34,821 bases of DNA, from contig JACQKQ010000003.1 in assembly GCA_016204465.1 (NCBI GenBank), forward strand, positions 1-34,821, given 5' to 3'. Below are positions 8,168 to 32,671 of the stretch, in pieces. The notes beneath the pieces were generated by a model. The model did not search any database. It saw only the letters and a list, made by a program, of their open reading frames with translations, and was not told the DNA's origin. The stretch is from Candidatus Levyibacteriota bacterium (GTDB lineage: Bacteria > Patescibacteriota > Microgenomatia > Levybacterales > UBA12049). Each line of letters begins with the position of its first letter. Position 1 is the first letter of the stretch. A program made the translations under genes and the position numbers.

Positions 8168-8356
8168 TTACGCTGCCCCCAGCATTTTTTTAATTTTTTT
8201 TGCGAATTTTCCCTGGAGTTGTCCTGGTTCTTTTTGCCGCCGAAGCCTCCTTTTTGATTTTTTTCGCAGCAAATGACCATGATATTGGTGTTCAAAAAGC
8301 ACCTTACCTTTTTTTGTAATTTTAAACCTTTTGCTGACTGACTTCTTGATTTTCAT
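8168..8356 (-). CDS. rpmI: 50S ribosomal protein L35
   Basis: MKIKKSVSKRFKITKKGKVLFEHQYHGHLLRKKSKRRLRRQ: bL35. Track start 8440 is over-extended; internal Met at 8356 fits the family and overlaps the infC 3' end. Confidence 0.92.
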   Translation of the reverse strand: MKIKKSVSKRFKITKKGKVLFEHQYHGHLLRKKSKRRLRRQKEPGQLQGKFAKKIKKMLGAA

Positions 8357-8918
8357 TTTTTTCTGCGCTTTTGGCGGACTTTTTTTCCGGTGATAAAAGC
8401 GAAATAAGCTGTTTTCCTTCAAAATGCGGATCTCTTTCAATCTTTCCTATATCCGCGACTGCCCCAAATACCCTTTTTAATATCTCTTGCCCAAATTCAG
8501 GGTGGACTATCTGTCGTCCCGAAAATCGTACCACCAATCGTACCTTGTCGTTGTTTACTAAAAATTCTCTTGCTCTTCTGATCATGACATTGAGGTCATG
8601 ATCGTTCATAAAAGGTCCGAGTCTAATTTCTTTTGTTTCCGAAATCTTTGCCTTTTTTTTCTCGTCGCGCCTCTTTTTTGCCTGCTGGTACAAAAATTTC
8701 TTAAAATCAACAATCTTTGCAACAGGAGGCTTTGCCTTCGGTGCTACTTCGACAAGATCAAGTCCTAATGCTCTTGCTTTCGTGAGTGCATCAAATTTAG
8801 AAAGAACTCCTATTTGCTTTCCTTCGCTATCCAACACGCGAAGTTGTGAAGCAAAAATCCGCTCGTTTACCCTAAAATATGGTGTTTGATCGTGTTTGCG
8901 TTTAAATCTTTTTATCAA
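8322..8918 (-). CDS. infC: Translation initiation factor IF-3
   Basis: RVNERIFASQLRVLDSEGKQIGVLSKFDALTKARALGLDLVEVAPKAKPPVAKIVDFKKFLYQQ...KEIRLGPFMNDHDLNVMIRRAREFL: IF3. Confidence 0.97.
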   Translation of the reverse strand: MIKRFKRKHDQTPYFRVNERIFASQLRVLDSEGKQIGVLSKFDALTKARALGLDLVEVAPKAKPPVAKIVDFKKFLYQQAKKRRDEKKKAKISETKEIRLGPFMNDHDLNVMIRRAREFLVNNDKVRLVVRFSGRQIVHPEFGQEILKRVFGAVADIGKIERDPHFEGKQLISLLSPEKKSAKSAEKNENQEVSQQKV

Positions 8919-10644
8919 TTTCTAATTTAACCTTTTGAATAAAATTAGATAAAGGCACAAGTCCTTCATCTTTTCCTTCTCGCGTTCGAATAGAAAGCCC
9001 GCCACTTTGGACTTCTTTATCTCCTATTATACCCATATACGATACCTTTTGTAAAGTAGCTTGACGAATTTTGGCTTGCATGCTTTCCGCGCGATCGTCA
9101 ACCTCACTTCGAATATTGGCCTTTTGAAGTTCTTCATTAGCTTTTCTTGCCGCTTCCTGATGCCGATTTGCAATTGGAATAACCACCACCTGCACTGGCG
9201 AAAGCCACACAGGGAATTTCCCAGCGTAGTGTTCTAGTAAAAACGCAACGAATCGTTCATGCGTTCCAAGCGGCGCTCTGTGAATGACGAATACTGGTTT
9301 TTCTTGTCCGTTAGAATCAACATATTTGAGGCCAAATCGCTCGCTTGCGATAAAATCAAGCTGATTTGTCGATGCTGTCTCTTCTCTTCCAATAACAGAT
9401 TTTATCTGAAAATCAACTTTTGGACCATAGAATGCAGCTTCCCCTATCGCTTCTTCAAACGGAAGGCCAGACTCTCGCATGGCTTCCCGAAGGGATTGTT
9501 CTGTAAATTCCCAGAGCTTTGGATTGTCAAAGTACTTTCCTTTTTTGTTTGGGTCGTGGAGCGATAGCCTCATCCAGTATTCTTTAATGCCAAAAATATC
9601 ATAATAGTACTTGTGTAATTCCATAACCTTTAAAAACTCTTCTTTAATCTGCTCTCTTGTGCAGTAAATATGGGCGTCGTTCGTGCTCATTCCCCGGACA
9701 CGAAGCAGCCCTGCCAGTGTTCCAGATAGTTCGTGGCGATAAACAGTGCCGTATTCCGCAAAACGCAATGGCAAATCGCGATACGACCTTGGTGTGTGTT
9801 TGAAAATTAAATGCGTCATAGGGCAGTTCATGGCTTTCAGATAGTAATCGCCGTCATCCAACCTCATAGGAGGAAACATAGAGTCTGCATAGTACGGGAG
9901 GTGTCCTGATGTTTCAAAAAGTTCTTTTTTGGCGATATGTGGGGTTGCAACGCGTTTGTAACCATACTGTTTTTCCGTCTTTTTTGCAAAGGTTTCTATT
10001 TCTTCTCGAATGATCGTTCCTTTTGGAAGCCACAGGATAAGTCCTGGTCCAACAAGATCGTCTGTTGTAAAAATGCCAAGCTCTTTGCCTAATTTTCGAT
10101 GGTCGCGCTTTTTTGCTTCTTCAAGCATTGTCAAATGTTCATCGAGTTCTTTTTTTGTTGGAAACGTTGTGCCGTAGATGCGGGTGAGCATTGGGTTTTT
10201 CTCGCTTCCCCGCCAGTATGCGCCGGCAATAGTGAGCAGTTTAAAAGCACCGATTTCGTTTGCTGGATTTTCTGAGTGTCCGCCTCGACAAAGATCGTCA
10301 AAATCACCAGCCTTGTAGATTCGCAAGGCGTCCCCTTTTGAGGCTAGTTCTTCAATAAGTTCTAGTTTATATGGATTTTCGGCAAAAAGTTCGTTAGCTT
10401 CTTTAGCGCTAACTATTCTTCCTTCAAAATAGGTCCAGCTAGGAAGAAGTTGTCTCATTTTTTCTTCTATTTTTGGCAAATCTTCATCTGTAATTTTTAT
10501 GTCGCCAAAATCAAAGTCATAGTAAAACCCATTTTCAATTGCCGGGCCAATTGTCAATTTTGTCTTTGGATAAAGTTTAAGCACGGCCGCAGCCAAAAGA
10601 TGCGCTGTTGAATGTCTAATATACTCAAGGTGTTCTTTACTCAT
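8902..10644 (-). CDS. thrS: Threonyl-tRNA synthetase lacking the N-terminal TGS domain
   Basis: MSKEHLEYIRHSTAHLLAAAVLKLYPKTKLTIGPAIENGFYYDFD...RGGHSENPANEIGAFKLLTIAGAYWRGSEKNPMLTRIYGTTF...RHELSGTLAGLLRVRGMSTNDAHIYC; starts directly at the editing domain; an in-frame TGA lies just upstream. Confidence 0.97.
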   Translation of the reverse strand: MSKEHLEYIRHSTAHLLAAAVLKLYPKTKLTIGPAIENGFYYDFDFGDIKITDEDLPKIEEKMRQLLPSWTYFEGRIVSAKEANELFAENPYKLELIEELASKGDALRIYKAGDFDDLCRGGHSENPANEIGAFKLLTIAGAYWRGSEKNPMLTRIYGTTFPTKKELDEHLTMLEEAKKRDHRKLGKELGIFTTDDLVGPGLILWLPKGTIIREEIETFAKKTEKQYGYKRVATPHIAKKELFETSGHLPYYADSMFPPMRLDDGDYYLKAMNCPMTHLIFKHTPRSYRDLPLRFAEYGTVYRHELSGTLAGLLRVRGMSTNDAHIYCTREQIKEEFLKVMELHKYYYDIFGIKEYWMRLSLHDPNKKGKYFDNPKLWEFTEQSLREAMRESGLPFEEAIGEAAFYGPKVDFQIKSVIGREETASTNQLDFIASERFGLKYVDSNGQEKPVFVIHRAPLGTHERFVAFLLEHYAGKFPVWLSPVQVVVIPIANRHQEAARKANEELQKANIRSEVDDRAESMQAKIRQATLQKVSYMGIIGDKEVQSGGLSIRTREGKDEGLVPLSNFIQKVKLEIDKKI

Positions 10645-10683
10645 AAGTTTACTATATCAGAAATAAAAAGAGTTATAAAGCAC

Positions 10684-10706
10684 AAAAAACCTCCCCTTCG
10701 GGAGGC
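10684..10706 (-). terminator. Terminator arm of the thrS operon attenuator
   Basis: Minus strand: GCCTCCCGAAGGGGAGGTTTTTT. Confidence 0.88.
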
Positions 10707-10732
10707 TATAGAAACATAAAAACTACAACCCC

Positions 10733-10780
10733 CTAGGAAGAGATGGTTGTGGTTGTACAAATGATTGCGCTTATTTTCAT
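10733..10780 (-). CDS. Threonine-rich attenuator leader peptide MKISAIICTTTTISS
   Basis: ATG AAA ATA AGC GCA ATC ATT TGT ACA ACC ACA ACC ATC TCT TCC TAG; four consecutive Thr codons, then antiterminator/terminator, then thrS. Confidence 0.9.
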   Translation of the reverse strand: MKISAIICTTTTISS

Positions 10781-10790
10781 GCTCAAAACA

Positions 10791-10799
10791 ATTATAGCA
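10791..10799 (-). promoter_or_regulatory. Extended -10 promoter (TGCTATAAT) for the thrS leader
   Basis: TGCTATAAT on the minus strand, 10 nt before the leader ATG; no good -35 at canonical spacing. Confidence 0.65.
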
Positions 10800-10813: not shown

Positions 10814-11134
10814 CTATGCTACTGCTTGCTGGTGTTCTAATTTAGATACGCGTTTCTCTACTTTTTCAAATCTTTTTGTGAAAGCAATAGTGATAAGATC
10901 GCCAACATTCATGATCCTTTTGTCTAGCCTAGCTTCCGTTTTTTCTAGTTGTTCTCTCAATTTCTCCATATCAATTTTCATTACCGCAGTATTATGTTCC
11001 ACGTTGCCCAATCTTGCTTTAATACTCTTTAGATCAAATTTTATATCATTAACATCAACGCTTGCCTCCTCTACTCTTTTTGCAATGCGTTTCAGAATAT
11101 CTACTGTGTTTTCTTCTTTTGTTTTTTGTTTCAT
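10814..11134 (-). CDS. Small predicted coiled-coil protein
   Basis: MKQKTKEENTVDILKRIAKRVEEASVDVNDIKFDLKSIKARLGNVEHNTAVMKIDMEKLREQLEKTEARLDKR...; heptad-like charged helix; start 11134 chosen from promoter position (track start is 11182). Confidence 0.65.
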   Translation of the reverse strand: MKQKTKEENTVDILKRIAKRVEEASVDVNDIKFDLKSIKARLGNVEHNTAVMKIDMEKLREQLEKTEARLDKRIMNVGDLITIAFTKRFEKVEKRVSKLEHQQAVA

Positions 11135-11141
11135 GTCAATT

Positions 11142-11172
11142 AGTATACCAAACAGACTTCGAGAGCTGTCAA
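11142..11172 (-). promoter_or_regulatory. Promoter TTGACA-N19-TATACT for the coiled-coil gene
   Basis: Minus strand ttgacagctctcgaagtctgtttggtatact, 7 nt before ATG 11134. Confidence 0.6.
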
Positions 11173-11204
11173 CCCCGATCAAATCGGGTTCAACTCGATC
11201 AATC

Positions 11205-32556: not shown

Positions 32557-32586
32557 AAAAAAATCCCCCTTTTGTTTGGGAGATTT
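32557..32586 (-). terminator. Terminator arm of the ilv/leu operon attenuator; 3' stem also carries the ilvE SD-like sequence
   Basis: Minus strand: AATCTCCCAAACAAAAGGGGGATTTTTTT directly followed by the ilvE ATG. Confidence 0.88.
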
Positions 32587-32617
32587 ATCTTGTCAAATGT
32601 GGCTTCTCCCAAACAGA

Positions 32618-32671
32618 TCAGCACGCCTCGACGAGGACGATGCCAAAAAGTGAGAGAAGATAGTTTTGCAT
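32618..32671 (-). CDS. Branched-chain attenuator leader peptide MQNYLLSLFGIVLVEAC
   Basis: ATG CAA AAC TAT CTT CTC TCA CTT TTT GGC ATC GTC CTC GTC GAG GCG TGC TGA; L-L-x-L and I-V-L-V codons, followed by competing hairpins and a terminator before ilvE. Confidence 0.9.
   Translation of the reverse strand: MQNYLLSLFGIVLVEAC

Follow-up and report, generated by a model that had tools for sequence, protein, structure and literature searches.

A candidate threonine leader-peptide attenuator upstream of thrS in Candidatus Levyibacteriota and its recurrence in Patescibacteria

What controls thrS, the gene for threonyl-tRNA synthetase, in a member of Candidatus Levyibacteriota? Bacillus thrS is under T-box control, and the enterobacterial thrL attenuator, which senses threonine and isoleucine together, controls the thrABC biosynthesis operon. 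Control of E. coli thrS by ThrRS has been mentioned as well (PMC2965389). In Patescibacteria (CPR), of which hardly any member is in culture, very little is known for this reason about how genes are regulated. Here, we analysed a stretch of 34,821 nucleotides, referred to as the window, from a genome assembly of 50 contigs that totals 881,190 bases and is 88.8% complete. The initial annotation had interpreted the region ahead of thrS as a Thr leader-peptide attenuator aimed at this gene, an interpretation that is strongly supported by the comparison with other genomes described below. The extended −10, the leader ORF with its Thr codons, the 2:3 pairing and the terminator had been read correctly, in their letters as well as their positions, and all are present in the sequence (Table 1).

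Table 1. Features of the thrS region in the window (all on the minus strand).
Feature	Position	Strand	Basis and remarks
Putative leader promoter P1, extended −10 TGCTATAAT	10791..10799	-	Sequence; leader ATG within few bases of expected transcription start
Leader ORF MKISAIICTTTTISS, 15 codons plus TAG	10733..10780	-	Sequence, counterparts elsewhere; ATG 10780, TAG 10735-10733
Regulatory codons ACA ACC ACA ACC (Thr x4), segment 1	10745..10756	-	Sequence and Thr-run counts
Segment 2 GGGGGTTGTAG, 5′ half of anti-terminator, overlaps stop codon	10723..10733	-	Stalled-ribosome fold, Thr codon 1 or 2 in A site
Segment 3 CTATAGCCTCC, 3′ half of anti-terminator, partly 5′ arm of terminator	10701..10711	-	Folds
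Intrinsic terminator GCCTCCC-GAAG-GGGAGGT plus U tract (3:4)	10684..10706	-	Sequence, fold
Predicted promoter P2, TTTATA-N17-TATAGT, extended TG, 6 nt before thrS ATG	10651..10679	-	11/12 matches; conserved site
thrS, threonyl-tRNA synthetase, controlled gene	8902..10644	-	TIGR00418, 666.7 bits
infC, IF-3, annotated from TTG, overlaps thrS end	8322..8918	-	TIGR00168
rpmI, L35, from ATG of MKIKKSVSKRF	8168..8356	-	TIGR00001, translation
rplT, L20	7796..8158	-	TIGR01032
Terminator-like ACCTCCTCAAAAGGGAGGTTTTTTT after rplT	~7681-7657	-	Sequence

Ribosome-mediated attenuators are recognised by a short ORF with cognate codons, a terminator between this ORF and the controlled gene, and a mutually exclusive anti-terminator that depends on the position of the ribosome. 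In the window, a short ORF with four consecutive Thr codons precedes thrS, and the terminator at 10706-10684 lies between the two. Its stem spans 10706-10689, the six U residues consist of the last T of the stem and the next five, and thrS begins 41 nt further on along the minus strand. The anti-terminator comprises 11 pairs including G-U pairs and amounts to −15.1 kcal/mol by direct energy evaluation. The leader region as a whole folds 3.15 standard deviations below shuffled sequences, and its minimum-energy fold without a ribosome is the 2:3 form. The 1:2 pairing (ACAACC with GGTTGT), which had been proposed as a further part of the switch and would act as the protector hairpin of an untranslated leader, exists as 6 bp but is weak (−5.5 kcal/mol alone), is missing from the ribosome-free fold and exceeds shuffled sequences (p≤0.05) in just 9 of 25 leaders. 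As to the promoter, the window has an extended −10 only, and a −35 at the proper distance is absent. Several other leaders display TTGACA-N17 ahead of the −10 and an ATG about 5-10 nt behind it, so that the leader mRNA should be leaderless. All of these elements, the cognate codons, their recurrence and, as predicted folds, the conditional folding are shown by the sequences.

Our preferred explanation, with a probability of roughly 90%, is transcription attenuation of the classic ribosome-mediated type, in which the element responds to charged tRNA-Thr and thrS is the gene under control. We infer where transcription starts, that the leader is translated, that the terminator acts in vivo and how large the effect is. 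The P1 transcript would begin at or beside the leader AUG. When Thr-tRNA is scarce, the ribosome would stall at the first Thr codons and leave segment 2 free to pair with segment 3; with the 2:3 structure formed there would be no terminator, and RNA polymerase would continue into thrS-infC-rpmI-rplT. When Thr-tRNA is plentiful, the ribosome would reach the stop codon and cover segment 2, the 3:4 hairpin would form and transcription would stop about 40 nt before thrS. P2 would supply a basal leaderless thrS mRNA independently of the attenuator.

Conditional folding was evaluated in 25 terminator-bearing leaders gathered across the phylum, in which the RNA emerging from the ribosome was folded with the ribosome edge assumed to lie 15 nt downstream of the first A-site base. 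When the first Thr codon occupied the A site, 21 of the 25 leaders formed the 2:3 anti-terminator and retained no terminator pair, whereas dinucleotide-shuffled spacers gave a chance expectation of 1.4. With the ribosome at the stop codon, the terminator formed in all 25. Thus, in the predicted folds the two structures exclude each other according to the position of the ribosome. The window leader switches at Thr codons 1 and 2 and loses this ability from codon 3 onward. Four leaders (L007, L109, L126 and L247) do not switch at the first Thr codon, L247 doing so at the second. The spacing between stop codon and terminator ranges from 22 to 45 nt among the 25 leaders, with a mode of 26.

The same architecture was found upstream of thrS in at least 24 further Patescibacteria genomes, and the encoded peptides are unrelated except for the Thr run. 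For a blind count, we asked for at least three identical residues in a row in a short ORF with a terminator behind it, in 136 thrS upstream regions drawn from the whole order (82 genomes) and from the best thrS matches in the class. Under this strict test Thr runs occurred in 18 of the 136 regions, a frequency that is not representative because genomes entered the class and phylum sets through their similarity to the ThrRS of the window; related genera are counted separately. Among the other residues, Ile was found twice and Lys, Val and Leu once each in the same regions, and 20 dinucleotide shuffles of the set yielded no Thr case. According to the initial annotation, a terminator kept in relatives without the Thr codons would refute the element; such ORFs do recur there, and terminator and Thr codons are conserved jointly. 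In an alignment of five relatives, the conserved blocks are the Thr codons, TAGT in segment 2 and CCTCC/GGAGG-T7, whereas the N-terminal leader codons vary.

Leaders from other genera and families of the class and order include MTNAIIITTTIL (L007), MNQAVTLTTTTTR (L024) and MNKQFALTTTTAL (L027). Further Thr-run leaders with terminators are MIRRYQTTTTTTTP (L074), MKNVSLVLTTTTTR (L080), MMKFVMAATATTTTIPG (L081), MNLVTTTTTVAL (L083), MKKFFNYTTTSTTSP (L090) and MLLLTTTTTSSA (L109), among others. Beyond the class, terminator-bearing leaders are present in two families, f71 and f104 (MHIRLNTTTTTTARRVV in L247, MHRPLTTTATTTTSV in L252, and L245), and one occurs in Candidatus Roizmanbacteria (MSLLNFVIVTTTTCPR, L160). 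The Thr runs of relatives reach seven or eight codons compared with four in the window. A leader with eight Thr codons, MYIKNIITTTTTTTTSS, with AACCTCTTCAAAAGAGGTTTTTATTTTT behind it, was also noticed in the bacterium isolate CSMAG_253 (L166). One genome of the class has its locus in common with Candidatus Woesebacteria RIFCSPLOWO2_01_FULL_39_23 (L113 = L208), so that the class is the one to which Woesebacteria belong (Microgenomatia in GTDB).

Within the order, the distribution is patchy. Among 74 genomes with thrS, only L002, L007, L016, L024 and L027 have the leader, and L073 and L004, whose synthetases are the nearest relatives, lack it. A short ThrRS, which aligns only from residue ~172 onward and is missing the N-terminal part, is encoded by about 40 genomes of the order; the Thr leader was found in none of them. 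A different arrangement was seen in family f82, where thrS is preceded by ORFs whose Thr run is mostly followed by Pro (L224, L230, L234, L240, L242 and L261). Six of eight f82 loci carry such an ORF, compared with 1.75% in shuffled sequences, and these ORFs are not followed by an intrinsic terminator. The f82 form may be a translational or Rho-dependent version.

Could the hairpin simply end transcription of the preceding gene (10814-11182, minus strand), the Thr-rich ORF being a chance frame? That gene stops at 10814 and the hairpin follows after 108 nt with no other terminator in between, and the promoter P2 of thrS itself is located past the hairpin, all of which would suit such an arrangement. 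Against it stand the specific recurrence of Thr runs together with a terminator before thrS (18 cases against at most two for any other residue and none for Thr in shuffles), the excess of alternative anti-terminators over chance (21 of 25 against 1.4) and a promoter-like sequence of the leader's own at a fixed short distance. We consider this explanation very improbable, and reject the hairpin as a mere end of the preceding gene on the grounds of the Thr specificity and the switch statistics. Even less credit is due to control of thrS in this lineage by a T-box or by a ThrRS operator as in E. coli. Both are described controls of thrS, but models of the T-box and other Rfam riboregulators gave no hit at the gathering score in the window and 60 related loci (L073-L092 and L101-L140), and nothing credible at a permissive score, at which the leader grazes Phe_leader (RF01859) with 17.1 bits against a cut-off of 55.

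More weight has to be given to P2, a second promoter-like site (10679-10651) that the initial annotation had not included. Such a site occurs right before the thrS ATG in 48 of 68 thrS genes of the order versus 3.3 in shuffled sequences, most commonly as TTTATA/TTTACA-N17-TATAAT-like-N6-ATG, and is present with or without a leader. P2 probably drives a leaderless thrS mRNA that is not subject to attenuation. As it lies behind the terminator, the attenuator can act on the P1 transcript only, and its control of thrS is probably partial. A transcription start downstream of 10780 had been named as a result that would refute the element, and P2 is probably such a start; since several families possess both the leader and P2, we read it as a limit on the control and not as a refutation. 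In an extreme variant of the attenuator explanation, stalling at Thr codons is real but P2 carries nearly all thrS transcription, the attenuator adding little or mainly a boost during starvation. The 11/12 matches of P2, its conservation across the order regardless of the leader and the absence of a Shine-Dalgarno sequence before the thrS ATG on the read-through transcript of the window speak in favour of P2 dominance. The retention of the switch in many lineages argues against it, as do L074, L081 and L133, in which the thrS start has a Shine-Dalgarno-like sequence but a −10 resembling that of P2 was not found; the attenuated transcript may be the sole one there. We regard P2 dominance as a tentative possibility, whose probability overlaps with that of the attenuator explanation as a whole.

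The attenuator reading leaves the question of which gene is the target. Regulation of the complete thrS-infC-rpmI-rplT unit by Thr-tRNA charging had been suggested, which would include IF3, L35 and L20. Downstream of thrS, infC-rpmI-rplT are present in L002, L007, L016, L024, L027, L080, L083, L094, L100 and L160. In L074, L081, L089, L090, L245 and L247 the leader is kept and infC-rpmI-rplT were not found downstream, which points to thrS as the common target. The proposal is supported for thrS; in view of P2 and these six leaders, operon-wide control would be partial at best, and IF3, L35 and L20 as the regulatory aim are a weakened candidate.

How does the element relate to known systems? 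The enterobacterial thrL shares the Thr codon run, anti-terminator and terminator with the window leader, but controls biosynthesis whereas the window leader precedes a synthetase, and neither the Thr_leader nor the Phe_leader model of Rfam has a gathering-score match in the window. In E. coli pheM-pheST (cited in PMC1262725), a leader peptide with cognate codons, an anti-terminator and a terminator likewise precede the synthetase genes; the codons are Phe instead of Thr, and the Phe_leader score mentioned above is sub-threshold. Besides pheST in gamma-proteobacteria, trpS and leuS in Streptomyces are under peptide attenuation (PMC1262725), and hisS paralogues in bacilli have His leader attenuators (PMC2965389). 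Streptomyces leuS/trpS2 and Bacillus hisS thus use the same ribosome-mediated attenuation by cognate codon runs, and the leuS/trpS2 leaders are also leaderless like that of the window; they differ in synthetase and phylum. Peptide attenuation of a synthetase, which had been proposed as a third mode of thrS control, is therefore of an established kind. Nor is it entirely without precedent for thrS. In Streptomyces lividans TK24, a leaderless leader of 18 residues, MKRVRPFLETTPGFVPAR, upstream of thrS was proposed as an attenuator from RNA-seq (PMC8079986). Both leaders are short leaderless ORFs with Thr codons directly upstream of thrS. The S. lividans leader has two Thr codons and no clear terminator (PMC8079986), whereas the window has a run of four and a complete anti-terminator/terminator arrangement; it belongs to a different phylum, shares no peptide similarity and has the comparative support on its side. 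S. lividans was the only case encountered in the literature searched on transcription attenuation in Patescibacteria and on thrS leader peptides; predictions for thrS may be contained in a survey by Lopatovskaya and co-workers (cited in PMC4833913). Judged from the sequence comparisons, the window element represents a known mechanism in a new phylum, and for thrS the comparative support is now much stronger. Peptide attenuation of thrS, so far proposed for a single Streptomyces case that lacks a clear terminator, would thereby gain a well-supported element that recurs in a second phylum.

Similar leaders may serve other amino acids. Within the class, a looser filter without shuffle control picked up short ORFs that have a cognate run and a terminator ahead of pheS, hisS and trpS, each in 1-2 of 30 loci, which makes them leads rather than tested cases. 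Those of pheS (L298 and L313) comprise MINMSRANKFFFFFFNLAQAGDGSVV and a second one ending in AFFKFFFT, those of hisS (L325 and L328) include MLLSNATTQVHHHTLL and that of trpS (L360) is MDMTNTYQQIKFSWWRHSK. In the assembly to which the window belongs there was no match for pheS, hisS or trpS themselves, which may reflect missing sequence given its 88.8% completeness. Upstream of ilvE in the window (32557-32671, minus strand), we observed a leaderless ORF, MQNYLLSLFGIVLVEAC (32671-32618), followed by GTTTGGGAGA, TCTCCCAAAC and GGGGGATTTTTTT, the last of which ends at the ilvE ATG. In the modelled folds, a ribosome placed on the Leu, Ile or Val codons leads to the anti-terminator and one that has reached the stop codon to the terminator, and the arrangement is a probable branched-chain attenuator of the ilv-leu operon. 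We are slightly inclined to see in these cases a general system of Patescibacteria, in which leaderless cognate leaders (of thrS, pheS, hisS, trpS and the ilv/leu operon of the window) replace T-boxes and thrS adds the leaderless P2 transcript. If so, starvation-driven read-through would add to a constitutive basal thrS transcript. A tRNA-charging switch that can be read from sequence would offer a handle on amino acid sensing in minimal cells, and the predictions from its layout are testable in metatranscriptomes and reporter strains.

Two minor observations concern the segment just upstream of thrS. L016, L021, L100 and L101 carry a hairpin with the near-invariant loop GGAYGCTAGCT just before P2, a pattern that also matches once in L015. 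Moreover, in L016, L021, L089, L100 and L101 the interval from the attenuator terminator to thrS contains a small ORF preceded by a strong Shine-Dalgarno sequence, and most of the encoded peptides look mutually unrelated.
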